Positions 6,591 through 48,879 of a stretch of 64,000 bases of DNA are shown one piece after another. The notes below the pieces were generated by a model. It did not search any database and was not told the origin of the DNA. It worked only from the letters and a program-made list of their open reading frames with translations. Both the position numbers and the translations under genes were made by a program. The DNA is from Verrucomicrobiota bacterium (GTDB lineage Bacteria; Verrucomicrobiota; Kiritimatiellia; RFP12; UBA1067), in assembly GCA_023269675.1 (NCBI GenBank), contig JAHFSX010000013.1, positions 1 through 64,000 on the forward strand, in the 5' to 3' direction. Each line of letters starts with the position of its first letter. The stretch's first letter is position 1.

Positions 6591-7721
6591 TCACGGCGCT
6601 TGGATGCGGTAGAAGCGGGCGGAATGATTCACCGCTTGAGGATCGCTGAAAGCGGATGTGCCGCCGGTCAGGGTGTTGGTGCCCACCGGGCACCAGACGG
6701 AATGGGCCAGGCTCGTGCAGGCTTCCACCACGATGACGAGATTGCTGGTGCCGGAGATGCTGAAGCCGAATTGACCCGCCCGCATACCGAAGCTGCCGCC
6801 GGCCTGCACCTGCGCATTCCATAGCACGGTGGGCCGGCCACCCATGGCGGCAGCCCACCCCGTGGTGCGCGGCAGGTAATAGACGGTCGTCTGGTTGGCG
6901 TCCAAAAAGATGTTGGCATCAACGCTCGGCGCGTTTCCTTTGAAAAAGACGCGGGCCAGCCTTCTGCAGAGTTTGAACACATCGAGATCCACGTTGGTGA
7001 CGCTGCCGGGGATCGTGACGCTGATCAGGCCGGTGCAGCCTTCGAACACCCTTTTTCCGATGACGGTCACGCTGTCGGGTATCGTGACGCGAGCGAGGCC
7101 GCTGCAGAAACCAAACGCAACGTCCCCGATACTGGTAACGCCGTTGCCGATGGCGAGGCCGGTCAGGCCACTGCAGTTTTTGAAAGCATAGCCGCCGATA
7201 CTGATGACGCTGTCGGGTATCCTGACGCTGGTCAGGGCGGTGCAGCTTTGGAACGCAGAGCTTCCGATGTTGGTCACGCCGGTGCCCATCGTGACGCCAG
7301 CCAAGCTGAAGCAGTCCTGAAACGCAGAGGGCCCGATGCGGGTGACGCCGTTGCCTAGAGTGACGCTTGTCAGCCAATCGCAGTCATAGAAAGCCCAATC
7401 CCCGATGGTGGTGACGCTGTCGGGTATCGTGACGCGAGTGAGTCCGCTGCAGGACTCGAACGCCTGCTCCCCGATGCCGGTGACCGTCAGGCCGTCGATC
7501 GTGTCGGGGATGCTTAACTCACCGCCGGAGCCTGTGTAGCCGGTGATGGTGATCGCAATTCCATCCGTCGTGTAAATGAAGTCGCCAGACTGCAAAGCCT
7601 CAACGACGGGCGCGGTGGCAGCCAGGAAAAGCGCCGACAAAAACAAAGCCCAGCCCCTTCGCGTCAGCGAGAGTCTCAGCCCCGGTCTGGCTTGCATTCG
7701 CACCGTCCACGCTTGGCTCAT
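6591..7721 (-). CDS. BspA-like leucine-rich repeat surface protein
   Basis: A 376-residue secreted protein. The start at 7721 has AAGGA upstream; a longer frame runs back into the dispersed repeat and is rejected. The N-terminus is a long signal peptide with hydrophobic core WALFLSALFLAATAPVV. From about residue 65 there are roughly eight or nine LRR_5/BspA-type repeats of about 23 residues with the phrase LTSVTIPDSVTSIG and its variants. The end (about 320-376) is a small module with SNLVIVVEAC and SARFYRIQ that, from general knowledge, recurs at the C-terminus of secreted proteins in Kiritimatiellota and Lentisphaerota. A surface adhesion or protein-binding role is usual for the family. One copy of the 250-bp repeat lies 120 bp upstream. 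Confidence 0.88.
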   Translation of the reverse strand: MSQAWTVRMQARPGLRLSLTRRGWALFLSALFLAATAPVVEALQSGDFIYTTDGIAITITGYTGSGGELSIPDTIDGLTVTGIGEQAFESCSGLTRVTIPDSVTTIGDWAFYDCDWLTSVTLGNGVTRIGPSAFQDCFSLAGVTMGTGVTNIGSSAFQSCTALTSVRIPDSVISIGGYAFKNCSGLTGLAIGNGVTSIGDVAFGFCSGLARVTIPDSVTVIGKRVFEGCTGLISVTIPGSVTNVDLDVFKLCRRLARVFFKGNAPSVDANIFLDANQTTVYYLPRTTGWAAAMGGRPTVLWNAQVQAGGSFGMRAGQFGFSISGTSNLVIVVEACTSLAHSVWCPVGTNTLTGGTSAFSDPQAVNHSARFYRIQAP

Positions 7722-43750: not shown

Positions 43751-46006
43751 CTACAGCACCGTGAAGCGCGTGCCGCGGTCGTAGCGGAGCGCGCCGGGTC
43801 CTTCAAACACCGTTGGGCTGGTCAATGCCGAATATTTGGCCGGCGGCATCAGCACGCCCTCCTGCCAAAACTCTTTGATCAAAATGCTGCCGACATAGTC
43901 CAGCGCCAGCGGCGTCATCGAATCGGCCACAAACACCAACCCGCGGCCCTGCGGCAAGGCCTGCTCCGCCGTCATTTCAAACCGCTTGAGCTTCAGGTTG
44001 TCGATCAGCGCGCCCCAGGTCACGCCCTTGGAGTTAACGCCCTCGAACCGCAGCGTGTGCGCGCCTGCGGCGACGTTCGGCAGAAGCACCTGACGCAGCG
44101 TGTTCGTCAGTTGCGCGACCGTCACGACGGCTTTATCAACACCGTCCAGGCGGACGCGGAAATCGTACCCACCGTTTTCGGTGGTGCTGCTGATGACCGT
44201 GCTGTTCAACTGGAACTGCAGCGCATGCGTGCCGTTCGTCGCCACGCTGATCTGCGTCTCCATGCTGCCGCTGCCCATCAGCACCGCGGTCTGCTTGCCC
44301 TCCGGCGCGATATAGCGTAAATAATAACCGGTGTTGACGTAGTTCGTCGAAACCGGGCTGTTGTTGCGCTGGAAGCCCGCATAGTTCGCGCTGTTCGCAT
44401 ACGAGAAGGTCCAGCCGTTGGTCGTCCCGCCCTTGACGATCATCGTCGCGGAGTCGCCGTCCGGAATCTGCTCGGCCTCGAACCCCGCGCTCGGGATGGC
44501 GTTCGTCACCTCGACCGGCAGCGCCCCGACCACCGCGGACGGCGGGCGGTAGATGGTGAGTTCGCCCAGAATCTGCGCGGTGTTCGTCGTGGACTCCGTA
44601 TCCGTGCACCGGTAGGCATCTAAACGCAAGTAGCGCGCATAAGGCAGGTTGGTAAAGGTGACCGCATGGTGGTACGGCCAAGCTGAACTCCAGCTTGTGA
44701 TGTCAGCAACCTGCGACATGTTGTTCGTCTCAAGTCCCCCGTACACGACCACGCGCCCCGTGCCGTAAGCGCCCGCCTCCTGCGTAAACACGTTCGACCA
44801 GCAGAGCAGGTCCGTGCCCGCCACATACCGCGGCGCGCCCAGATCCGCGGTGACCGAAAAGTCCCCGTAAACGCGCACCGCGTTGCGGGTGTTCGATTCC
44901 CACGTCCCGTCCGTCAGCTTGGGGCATTCGGTTTTGTCCACATGGACCGAGGGCGCCTTGCTGAACACATAGGTGAAAGCGAGCGGGTCGCCCAGCGGCG
45001 AAGCCAGCGGGGCCTCGTAGATCTGGATCTCGCCCAGCAGTTGCCGCACGATATTCGTATTCGATATTTTCTCGCAGGCGAAGGCCAGATAGCGCGCCTC
45101 GACGTTCGGAAGGGTGAAGTCGAAACGTATCGAATTAGGCGTATAATATCCGGGAAAACTGCTCTCGTAGTTTGTCTGAACGCCCGCGCAGGTCCAAGCT
45201 ATGCCGTCGAGACTGTTGCTGAGCGTCACGCGTGTGGTCGCATAACTACCCGCACCAGTTGATCGGAAGGCATACAGGTGGGCGCGCTGCAACGTACGGA
45301 CGCTATTCAGAGTCGTCGTGACCACCACATTGCTCGCGACACATTTGCTCGGATCGGCAGTATCCACAAGCGAAGCAGTGTTCGGGCCATACTGGACGCT
45401 CTGTGTGCCCGCATTCGTCCAAGACCCATCGGACAGCTTTGACAGGGTGCCATCCGGATGCGCCGAATTATACGGCATCGACGTCGTGTACGAAAAAGCC
45501 GACAGACCGGACGCGCCGGCGGAACTGCCGGACACCACGATCTCGGCCAGCGACTGCCCCGCAACGCTGCCTTTGGCGCAGGCCAGACGCAGGTAGCGCG
45601 CGTTCGCATAGAAGGCGCTCCCCGAGAAGAGCCCGTTGCTCACCGCGGACAGCGCACCCAGCGGGATCCACGTCACGTTGTCGTTGCCGCACTCCAGCGC
45701 CACACCCAGCGTCGAGAGCGGCGAGCCGCCCGCCACCGTGAAGGTATAGACATCCACCTTGCTGAGCTGCATGCGCCGGCCCAGGTCCACGGTGACGGCC
45801 ACGTTGTCGCCGTACTTGACGCCGTCCGCGGCGCTGTTCGCCCAGTAGCCGTCGTTCAGCTTCCTGAGAAAAGGATCCGGCGTCGAAGCGTCCGCCGCCA
45901 GGCTCGTCGTGTAGGCGAACGAGAGGATGTTCGTTTCAGCGGCCAGGCTGAGTCCGGCCACAAGGGCCGCGCCTGCCATCATCAGTCTTCTCAGTATTAC
46001 CGTCAT
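43751..46006 (-). CDS. Large secreted protein with three discoidin-like repeats
   Basis: A 751-residue exported protein. The ATG at 46006 follows GGGAGG and starts the signal peptide (LMMAGAALVAGLSLAAETN). Three related domains of 130-170 residues follow, each opening with FAYTTS or FSYTTS, then a LNDGYWANSA- or LSDGSWTNAG-type phrase and KYGDNVAVTVDLG-like strands, and ending in ARYLRLACAKG or ARYLRLDAYRC. This is the F5/8 type C (discoidin) plan for binding sugars or surfaces. The last 230 residues form another beta-sandwich (ALQFQLNSTVIS, YDFRVRLDGVDKAVV). No catalytic motif is visible, so an adhesin or glycan-binding role is likely. It is divergent from the E1 genes. Confidence 0.82.
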   Translation of the reverse strand: MTVILRRLMMAGAALVAGLSLAAETNILSFAYTTSLAADASTPDPFLRKLNDGYWANSAADGVKYGDNVAVTVDLGRRMQLSKVDVYTFTVAGGSPLSTLGVALECGNDNVTWIPLGALSAVSNGLFSGSAFYANARYLRLACAKGSVAGQSLAEIVVSGSSAGASGLSAFSYTTSMPYNSAHPDGTLSKLSDGSWTNAGTQSVQYGPNTASLVDTADPSKCVASNVVVTTTLNSVRTLQRAHLYAFRSTGAGSYATTRVTLSNSLDGIAWTCAGVQTNYESSFPGYYTPNSIRFDFTLPNVEARYLAFACEKISNTNIVRQLLGEIQIYEAPLASPLGDPLAFTYVFSKAPSVHVDKTECPKLTDGTWESNTRNAVRVYGDFSVTADLGAPRYVAGTDLLCWSNVFTQEAGAYGTGRVVVYGGLETNNMSQVADITSWSSAWPYHHAVTFTNLPYARYLRLDAYRCTDTESTTNTAQILGELTIYRPPSAVVGALPVEVTNAIPSAGFEAEQIPDGDSATMIVKGGTTNGWTFSYANSANYAGFQRNNSPVSTNYVNTGYYLRYIAPEGKQTAVLMGSGSMETQISVATNGTHALQFQLNSTVISSTTENGGYDFRVRLDGVDKAVVTVAQLTNTLRQVLLPNVAAGAHTLRFEGVNSKGVTWGALIDNLKLKRFEMTAEQALPQGRGLVFVADSMTPLALDYVGSILIKEFWQEGVLMPPAKYSALTSPTVFEGPGALRYDRGTRFTVL

Positions 46007-46339
46007 AAAGCCTCCCTGCACGCACACAGATCCAAGTTGAATTACCACACAAAACCTTGAGTATAGCAGAACGGACGGCACAGCGTCCATTGTTCGCGCC
46101 TCCGAACTGAAGGCTCAGGTGCGGCGGACTCGGGCGGATGACAGGCTTGGGTCGCCGTCTGTGGTGCAGGCGCGACCTCGCGCCGCACAGAATCCCAGCC
46201 GGTGCGGGGTCGCACCGGCTCTACAGACCTCACCTGCGCCTGGGCCGGTCATAGACGCCAAGCGAACAACGCATGCATGCGCCTCGCCGCTGCCGGACCG
46301 GAATTCGGGCGCATCCCCGTTTCACTGACCGTTCGACTC

Positions 46340-46788
46340 GTTACGGTTGCGGGGCGTCCGAGACGTCCGCCCCTACCGGTGCGGCAGCAGTTGCGCGGGA
46401 CGTCCCGGACCGCGCACGGGCGGGGTGCTGAGGCACCCCTGCCCCGTTCTAGTTACGGTTGTGGGGCGTCCGAGACGTCCGCCCCTACCGGTGCGGCAGC
46501 AGTTGCGCGGGACGTCCCGGACCGCGCACGGGCGGGGTGCTGAGGCACTCCTGCCCCCGTTCTAGTTACGGTTGTGGGGCGTCCGAGACGTCCGCCCCTA
46601 CCGGTGCGGCAGCAGTTGCGCGGGACGTCCCGGACCGCGCACGGGCGGGGTGCTGAGGCACTCCTGCCCCCGTTCTAGTTACGGTTGCGGGGCGTCCGAG
46701 ACGTCCGCCCCTACCGGTGCGGCAGCAGTTGCGCGGGACGTCCCGGACCGCGCACGGGCGGGGTGCTGAGGCACTCCTGCCCCCGTTG
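46340..46788. repeat. Four-unit tandem array of a 113-bp REP-like unit
   Basis: Units begin with GTTACGGTTG at 46340, 46452, 46565 and 46678, so they are 112, 113, 113 and about 111 bp long and nearly identical. Each contains GGGGCGTCCGAGACGTCCGC CCCTACC (a palindrome with a GTAG foot on the minus strand), GGGACGTCCC, and GGGGTGCTGAGGCACCCC or a one-base variant. There are no unique spacers. The array ends about 100 bp before the E1 alpha gene. Confidence 0.9.
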
Positions 46789-46827
46789 AGGTCAATGAAA
46801 CAGAGATGCGCCCGCGGAATTCCCAAT

Positions 46828-46857
46828 TTGCCCTGCTCGCGGCGGTTGTGTTATCCT
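46828..46857 (+). promoter_or_regulatory. Possible promoter of the E1 alpha/beta genes
   Basis: TTGCCC (46828-46833) and TATCCT (46852-46857), 18 bp apart, resemble a housekeeping promoter. They lie between the tandem array and the E1 alpha start at 46890. Confidence 0.4.
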
Positions 46858-46889: not shown

Positions 46890-47834
46890 ATGGAGACTCT
46901 GAAGGCTTATTCGCTGATGCTGACGATACGCTTCTTCGAGGAGGCGATCGAACGGCTGTTCCTCGAGGGTCGCGTCATGGGCACGGCCCACACCTGCATC
47001 GGCCAGGAGGCGGTCGCCGTCGGCGTCGCCGCCGCGCTCGACGCCCGGGACGCGATGACCACGACGCACCGCGGACACGGCCACTTCCTGGCGCGCGGGG
47101 CGGACGCCGGGCGCGCCATGGCCGAGCTCTTCGGCCGCGCGACCGGCTACTCGCGCGGGCGGGGCGGCAGCCAGATGATGATGGACCCCTCCATCGGCTT
47201 CTACGGCGCGAACGGCATCACCGGCGGCAGCATCCCCTTCGCCACCGGGCTCGCGCTCGACGCGCAGATGCGGGGCTCCGGCCGCGTCACCGCCTGCTTC
47301 TTCGGCGACGGCGCCTCCAACCAGGGCGTCTTCCACGAGTCGCTCAACATCGCCGCGCTCTGGAAGCTCCCCGTCCTTTTCATCGCCGAGAACAACGGCT
47401 ACGCCATGTCCACCGCCACCGCCCAGGGCCTCGCCAACCCGCACATCGCCGACCGCGCCGCCTCTTACGGCATCCCCGGCATCCGCGTGGACGGCAACGA
47501 CTTCTGCGCGGTCCGCGACGCGGTCGCGTCGCTCGCCGCCGACGCGCGCGACGGCAACGGCCCCGCCCTGCTGGAGTGCACCACCTACCGTCTCTCGGGC
47601 CACTCGCGCGGCGACCCGCGCGTCTACCGCACCCGCGACGAGGAGTCGGCCGCCTGGAGCAAAGACCCGATCCTCCGCTTCGAAGCGCAGCTGAAGGCCG
47701 ACGGCACGCTGGACGATGACGCGATCCTCATGCACCGCGAGAACGCCAGGTCACACATCGACGCGGCGGTGCGCTTCGCCGAGACCTCGCCCCTGCCCCC
47801 CCACACGGGCCTGACCGACGACCTCTTCGCGTAA
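46890..47834 (+). CDS. Thiamine-dependent 2-oxoacid dehydrogenase E1, alpha subunit
   Basis: A 314-residue subunit of pyruvate or acetoin dehydrogenase type. The thiamine diphosphate motif runs from GDG (139-141) to NN (168-169): GDGASNQGVFHESLNIAALW, then FIAENNG. The substrate-channel His is in TTTHRGHGH near residue 60, and the phosphorylation-loop-like region YRLSGHSRGDPRVYR is near 240. The start at 46890 follows AAGGGGGG; a longer frame is rejected. With the beta subunit 70 bp downstream it forms a heterotetrameric E1 that decarboxylates a 2-oxoacid and passes the acyl group to a lipoyl E2. No E2 or E3 gene lies next to it here. Confidence 0.93.
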   Translation: METLKAYSLMLTIRFFEEAIERLFLEGRVMGTAHTCIGQEAVAVGVAAALDARDAMTTTHRGHGHFLARGADAGRAMAELFGRATGYSRGRGGSQMMMDPSIGFYGANGITGGSIPFATGLALDAQMRGSGRVTACFFGDGASNQGVFHESLNIAALWKLPVLFIAENNGYAMSTATAQGLANPHIADRAASYGIPGIRVDGNDFCAVRDAVASLAADARDGNGPALLECTTYRLSGHSRGDPRVYRTRDEESAAWSKDPILRFEAQLKADGTLDDDAILMHRENARSHIDAAVRFAETSPLPPHTGLTDDLFA

Positions 47835-47904
47835 CGCCAAAACGACCGCACAGGGTCGCCCCTACTCCCAACTCCTAAATCCTAAATCCTAAATCCTACT
47901 TTCC

Positions 47905-48879
47905 ATGAGAACCATCACCTTCACCCAAATCATCCGCGAAACGCTCGCCGCCGAGCTGCGGCGCGACCCCTCGGTTTTTCTGATGGGCGAGGACATCGGC
48001 GTCTACGGCGGCGCGTTCGGCGTCACCCGCGGGCTCATCGAGGAGTTCGGCCCGGGCCGCGTCCGCGACACGCCGATCTCCGAGCAGGCGCTCACCGGCA
48101 TCGCCATCGGCGCGGCCGTCGCGGGGCAGCGCCCCGTGATCGAGATCATGTTCATGGACTTCATCACCCTCGCGGTGGACCAGCTCGTCAACATGGCGGC
48201 CAAGGTCCATCCGATCTACGGCCAGGCCTGCCCGCTCGTGATCCGCACGCCGCCCGGCGGCGGACGCGGCTACGGCGCGACGCACTCGCAGTCGCTCGAG
48301 CGGCTCTTCGCCGGCGTGCCCGGCATCAAGATCGCCGCGCCCTCCAACGCGGCCGACGCCTCGGGCCTGCTCCAGACCGCCATCCGCGACAACAACCCCG
48401 TGCTCTTCCTCGAGCACAAGCTGCTCTACCCGCAGCGCTTCGAGGTCGACGACGAGCTGCCGCCGCCGATCCCCTTCGGCCGCGCGAAGGTCGCGCGCGC
48501 GGGCCGCGACCTCACGATCGTGGCCTGGTCCCACATGGCCTGGGTCGCGCAGCACGCGGCCGCCAAGCTGGCCGCCGAGGACATCGAGGCCGAGGTCATC
48601 GATCTGCTCACCCTCAACCCGCTCGACATCGACACCATCGTGTCCTCGGCCAAGCGCACCGGCCGCGTGATGGTCCTCGAGGAGGGGCCCAAGACCGGCG
48701 GCTTCGCCGCGGAGATCGCCGCGCAGGTCGCCGAGCACGCCTACGAATATCTCGAGCAGCCGGTCCGCCGCCTCGCCGGCGCCGACTTCCCCGTGCCCTC
48801 GGCCAAAAACCTCGAAGCCGCCTGCCTGCCCTCGCTCAACGACATCCTCGCCCTCGCCCGCGAGCTGGTTCAAAACTGA
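47905..48879 (+). CDS. Thiamine-dependent 2-oxoacid dehydrogenase E1, beta subunit
   Basis: A 324-residue partner of the preceding E1 alpha. Family phrases are FLMGEDIGVYGGAFGVTRGL near 25-44, DTPISEQALTGIAIGAA near 58-74 with the Glu that contacts the thiamine ring, and IRTPPGGGRGYGATHSQSLE near 113-132. The C-terminal transketolase domain has TIVAWSHMAWVA and VIDLLTLNPLDIDTI. The 70-bp gap to the alpha gene contains CCTAAATCCTAAATCC-type word repeats and a half REP (GGGTCGCCCCTAC). The ribosome site is weak. After its stop comes the repeat-flanked GxxExxY gene. Confidence 0.94.
   Translation: MRTITFTQIIRETLAAELRRDPSVFLMGEDIGVYGGAFGVTRGLIEEFGPGRVRDTPISEQALTGIAIGAAVAGQRPVIEIMFMDFITLAVDQLVNMAAKVHPIYGQACPLVIRTPPGGGRGYGATHSQSLERLFAGVPGIKIAAPSNAADASGLLQTAIRDNNPVLFLEHKLLYPQRFEVDDELPPPIPFGRAKVARAGRDLTIVAWSHMAWVAQHAAAKLAAEDIEAEVIDLLTLNPLDIDTIVSSAKRTGRVMVLEEGPKTGGFAAEIAAQVAEHAYEYLEQPVRRLAGADFPVPSAKNLEAACLPSLNDILALARELVQN

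Follow-up and report, generated by a model that had tools for sequence, protein, structure and literature searches.

Among the closest described systems is QMITE2 of the gammaproteobacterium Coxiella burnetii, a MITE of about 190 bp with terminal inverted repeats (TIRs), flanked by duplications of 7-9 bp (7-11 bp in the abstract), whose core of 113-145 bp has a GTAG REP inside and of which small REP-like versions without TIRs also occur (PMC5896051, PMC10969869, in the portions available). The element described in this work resembles QMITE2 in being a MITE with TIRs, in having duplications of similar length and in holding a GTAG REP in its core. It differs in having an ISKra4-like partner and a tandemly amplified core, neither of which is described in those portions of the two papers, and the shells to which it belongs enclose several cargos, whereas one core type is described there for QMITE2. 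Tandem REP arrays are also known. In Pseudomonas fluorescens SBW25, near-identical REP doublets stand in ordered tandem clusters, the largest comprising four REPINs and more than 700 bp, and in E. coli the tandem REPs of BIME-2 alternate in orientation. The array studied here is like the former in its highly ordered tandem of near-identical units and like the latter in its alternating tandem REPs; however, the sections of these reports used here describe no TIR-bounded transposon for the SBW25 clusters, which are tied to RAYT genes (PMC3116915), and no transposon shell for BIME-2 (PMC2817692). Abundant GTAG REPs are reported for a member of the Verrucomicrobia (PMC3733652, in the part available). 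Searches of the open-licence PMC literature brought up no account of a REP cargo inside an ISKra4-derived MITE.

The main finding of this work is that the tandem array in the window, by which we mean the whole analysed stretch of 64,000 nucleotides, makes up the interior, enlarged by amplification, of a single non-autonomous transposon (MITE) of 507 bp at positions 46307-46813 of the plus strand. The earlier note on this DNA had described a four-copy tandem array of REP-like units, and both parts of that description hold; absent from it was the enclosure of the array by 24-bp inverted repeats and a near-perfect 9-bp duplication. The left TIR, GGGCGCATCCCCGTTTCACTGACC, lies at 46307-46330 on the plus strand with one mismatch to the consensus, and the right TIR at 46790-46813 on the minus strand with two. 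Outside them stand the two copies of the target duplication, ccggaattc at 46298-46306 and gcggaattc at 46814-46822, identical at eight of nine positions. One-core relatives measure 165-171 bp, and the 507 bp of the window copy are due to the array. As expected of a MITE, the element is small and carries no transposase gene, since the open reading frames listed in it sit in repeats and none is transposase-sized, and its TIRs are common to other copies and to an autonomous insertion sequence, the full-size L160 of genome G008.

In the TRF output the array occupies 46340-46787 with a period of 113, 4.0 copies and 98% matches, and its score of 868 is the highest of the 13 rows for the 64-kb window. 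It consists of four core units of 112, 113, 113 and 110 bp, all on the plus strand: unit 1 at 46340-46451, unit 2 at 46452-46564, unit 3 at 46565-46677 and unit 4 at 46678-46787. Units 2 and 3 agree at every base; units 1 and 4 depart from them at a few, and unit 4 shows one difference from unit 2 over 110 bases. Each unit contains two oppositely oriented REP palindromes, REP-A with a GTAG foot on the minus strand (46351-46376, 46463-46488, 46576-46601 and 46689-46714) and REP-B on the plus strand (46390-46417, 46502-46529, 46615-46642 and 46728-46755), followed by a third, G+C-rich hairpin (46418-46444, 46530-46556, 46643-46669 and 46756-46782). In the alignment the foot of REP-B reads GTTG in all four array units and GTAG in 8 of 10 single copies, so that only one of the two REPs of each unit is GTAG-footed. 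The orientation alternates four times over, as in a BIME, and REP-A is an imperfect GTAG-footed palindrome, present in every unit and of a type dispersed elsewhere in solo pairs. The pair is not arranged as a REPIN, an inverted pair with its GTAG feet outermost, for in the MITE core the feet point inward. No Rfam family was found in the window at gathering thresholds. DNA folding gave z-scores of -2.79 and -1.92 for units, -4.03 for a one-core relative and -5.94 for the whole element, the last of which partly reflects repetition and is not main evidence.

The transposon nature of the array was supported by its relatives. A search of the window's own genome with one unit returned 14 strong places (E < 1e-30), namely the four array units and 10 single copies at as many other loci, one of them (L014) cut short on the right. 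When the single copies were aligned with their flanks, similarity extended past the unit to GGGCGCATCCCCGTTTCATTGACC, with its reverse complement on the other side, and a pattern scan of the same genome found 28 TIR ends with up to three mismatches, against none for the reversed control. Target duplications were counted in 43 paired elements with enough flank, from this and other genomes: 15 had 9/9 identical flanking bases and 25 at least 8/9, compared with a control mean of 0.015 per set for random 9-mer pairs drawn from the same flanks. Perfect repeats peaked at 9 bp, the other lengths between 4 and 12 bp giving one at 4 bp, two at 8 bp and one at 10 bp. The duplication is of constant length, and that of the window copy matches at 8/9. 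Left out of the set were L191, L195 and the second L203 element, whose flanks were too short, as well as L012, L014 and loci with a single recognisable end; the own-genome copies L008, L009, L013 and L095 showed no clear duplication. A degenerate 141-bp variant of the shell, with a 7/9 duplication and a different interior, was also seen in the own genome (L119:3657-3797, contig C2).

When each species was represented by a single genome, exact scanning returned 52 stretches with shell ends; the majority come from MAGs titled Kiritimatiellae, Lentisphaerae or Verrucomicrobia, and one MAG titled Akkermansia muciniphila also has such ends. Among the paired elements, L160 (1759 bp) and L193 (1749 bp) are of full size, and both contain a long ORF; the former, in G008, encodes 495 amino acids and has a perfect 8-bp duplication, and no target duplication was found for the latter. 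Members of the ISKra4 family likewise have 8-9 bp duplications and GGG ends. The L160 protein is homologous to the family model NF033572 (transpos_ISKra4) over 365 residues (E 1.1e-49), but its score of 169.7 bits lies below the curated NCBI cut-off of 205, and the partner is therefore called only ISKra4-like. Both ORFs exceed the gathering cut-off of PF06782 (UPF0236; 42.7 and 35.1 bits against 24.3), and that of L160 has weaker matches to the ISLre2 and ISH6 models as well. The L160 protein was matched in 19 of 114 genomes of the window genome's own family (E <= 1e-5). In the own genome it met only a 306-base remnant, 56% identical and with two stops, and neither an intact partner nor a full-size TIR pair was found in that assembly (94.8% complete); mobility of the element in its own genome may therefore be past. 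An element of the type found in genome G126, 96% identical to a G126 copy, was observed on a contig classed as viral in IMG/VR (L207:2872-3089), where it could reflect either phage carriage or host DNA.

Regarding the cargo, solo REP pairs of the window's REP type exist elsewhere in the own genome (L229, L230, L233), with different stems and with their GTAG feet outward. In a second set of own-genome elements, the same ends enclose an unrelated dispersed repeat that is also present without a shell. Similarity to its solo copies starts no further out than the inner end of the left TIR, and among those copies the five that were aligned show no recognisable TIR. A perfect duplication flanks a 482-bp element of G008, whose REP pair recurs at dozens of further sites in that genome, and cargo matching the genome's own solo REPs was found in G000, G008 and G126. 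The cargo REP of the G126 elements resembles REP-B, and an ORF of that genome (L278:388-1239, minus strand, contig C9) is surrounded by REPs of this type and appears to hold several of them in frame within its coding sequence. This RAYT-like ORF matched the REP-associated tyrosine transposase model NF047646 (REP_Tyr_transpos) with E 9.7e-16 and 58 bits against a cut-off of 80; no Pfam match was obtained for it. A 108-bp shell of G006 encloses one REP-A copy, a 144-bp shell of G011 a different GTAG hairpin, and several shell groups a palindromic cargo without a GTAG hairpin. In a search for a RAYT next to the same REP, the own genome gave three PF01797 matches; a hairpin scan showed different REPs adjoining two of these and no REP adjoining the remaining one.

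GTAG hairpins in shell interiors were counted three times, the definition being altered after the first two had missed the known REPs of the own genome. The first definition gave 6 in 5 of 46 elements (flanks 3), including the hairpin of L202, which was counted under this definition only; the second gave 5 in 4 of 46 (flanks 5), and the third 31 in 18 of 46 (8,669 bp), compared with 10 in flanks totalling 109,739 bp. Since this enrichment is post hoc and many of the copies are related, the claim is limited to the presence of several different GTAG REPs inside shells. Among the 11 other permutations of the foot, under the third definition, GGTA had 24 core matches, presumably GTAG hairpins in shifted register, and the rest had 0-7.

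The earlier note had also proposed that the units arose by recent amplification, and this can now be placed within the element: GTTACGGTTG and CAGCAGTTGCGCGGG are common to all four array units and occur in none of the 10 single copies, which indicates that the array grew from one core of the line of the window element. The variants among the units are not simply nested, as a C at position 11 links units 1 and 4, and towards the 3' end units 2-4 have in common a T and a fifth C, a pattern that fits unequal recombination. In G126, the 13 paired elements among the examined loci, truncated and contig-end copies excluded, have one core in 10 cases, two in 2 and three in 1, so expansion inside the shell also happened independently. 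The variable copy number that had been suggested thus stands for this kind of element, between sister elements within G126, and to that extent only. Arrays were also observed outside shells. In the own genome, a 130-bp, 3.7-copy array of another REP family (L122:253-729; contig C85, about 215052-215528) directly precedes and overlaps the start of a RAYT-like ORF, and in G012 a 102-bp, 3.0-copy array of a REP related to REP-A (L280:313-623, contig C112) has no TIR shell nearby. Amplification, therefore, does not need the shell.

The array had been placed about 40 bp before a putative promoter of 2-oxoacid dehydrogenase genes, and the distance proved correct, with 40 bp from its end to the putative -35 hexamer TTGCCC (46828-46833). 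The putative E1 promoter as read from the sequence, TTGCCC-18-TATCCT (46828-46857, plus strand), begins 14 bp after the element and did not appear in the output of a stricter consensus scan. Its counterparts in two genomes without the element at this place, G011 of the same genus and G012, read TTGCCC-17-TATCAT and TTGCCC-17-TATTTT, and in G011, compared by eye, there is a single CCGGAAAATTC at the place of the window's two duplication copies. Further upstream, G011 seems to have another gene than the window, which limits this comparison to the promoter side of the site. The putative promoter is intact downstream of the insertion, and any effect of the array on expression must therefore act through upstream DNA; a consensus scan of both strands found no promoter-like site inside the element. 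The promoter is followed by the dehydrogenase E1 alpha gene (46893-47834, plus strand; PF00676, 9.8e-84) and, downstream of it, an E1-beta-like gene (47905-48879). On the other side lies a divergent ORF of 779 amino acids from its first ATG (43751-46090, minus strand), for which no Pfam family passed its cut-off. Two further tandem repeats were noted in the window, one of TCCTAAA (3.7 copies, 100% matches) at 47873-47898, just before the E1-beta-like gene, and one of 207 bp (2.1 copies, 73% matches) at 6998-7435.

Taken together, these observations favor, with a probability of roughly 0.88, a MITE that owed its movement to an ISKra4-like (UPF0236) transposase and within which a REP cargo was amplified upstream of the putative E1 promoter. 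Its insertion, 14 bp before the putative promoter of the 2-oxoacid dehydrogenase E1 genes, would have duplicated about 9 bp of target; this reading is supported by the anatomy of the element, by the uninterrupted promoter region of G011 and by the full-size relative that has these ends. Inside, the MITE would hold not transposase debris but a cargo of two opposed REPs and a third hairpin, whose core was duplicated in the element's own line, probably by slippage or template switching at the hairpins, and then may have reached four units through spread and mixing by unequal recombination. The presence of other dispersed palindromes in the same shell, in this and other genomes, suggests that the shell could move REP-type repeats without the help of their RAYT transposase. 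The effect on the neighboring genes is likely modest: the insertion would replace the DNA just upstream of the putative promoter and part the two divergent genes, and the number of cores might conceivably alter supercoiling or protein binding at the site. Imperfect or absent duplications, the lack of an intact partner in the own genome, the sub-cut-off ISKra4 score, cargo without GTAG and shell-free arrays count against this explanation.

Those shell-free arrays are what an ordinary BIME-2 or tandem REPIN cluster, formed by REP/RAYT biology alone and flanked by incidental inverted repeats, would lead one to expect: the own genome has its 3.7-copy array beside a RAYT, G012 its three copies of a related REP, and tandem REPIN clusters are known in Pseudomonas (PMC3116915, in the part available). 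We consider this explanation improbable, because the array lies exactly between TIRs that recur around single cores elsewhere, with 9-bp duplications, and because its REP feet point inward, the reverse of the solo pairs of the own genome. As a full account it is largely refuted by the TIR and duplication statistics, although it is still true of the interior. The closeness of the array to the putative promoter (14 bp) and the variable core number of related elements would suit a candidate cis-regulatory array under selection, its unit number tuning the E1 promoter, as had also been suggested. Single-core relatives at 10 other loci of the own genome speak against such a role, as does the promoter motif of relatives without the insertion, a comparison in which the window species is represented by one genome, and from sequence we judge it very improbable. 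Because assembling short tandem repeats is difficult and no base distinguishes unit 2 from unit 3, the core number might also be an assembly artefact, the true value being one or another number. This appears the most remote of the three, given that the outer units, 1 and 4, are not the same as the middle two, that private variants occur in all four and that an independent MAG (G126) has one, two and three cores.

As far as the literature was searched, the combination of constant ISKra4-like ends, several unrelated palindromic cargos and one to four cores is new. We tentatively hypothesize, holding it to be possible rather than probable, that in Kiritimatiellota and relatives the ISKra4-like shell with its near-constant 24-bp ends is a general vehicle, which repeatedly takes up common REPs or other dispersed palindromes of its host, moves them by its own transposase and not by a RAYT, and lets the cargo amplify in tandem to between one and four cores. 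How REP palindromes spread, and how REP families without an adjoining RAYT come about, is the open question that this addresses, and a shell with constant ends around different host REPs would offer a second, testable route of REP spread. The series from one to four cores would be natural material for studying the growth of BIME-like arrays. The case also shows that what looks like a regulatory repeat before a gene may be nothing more than a mobile element grown by internal expansion.
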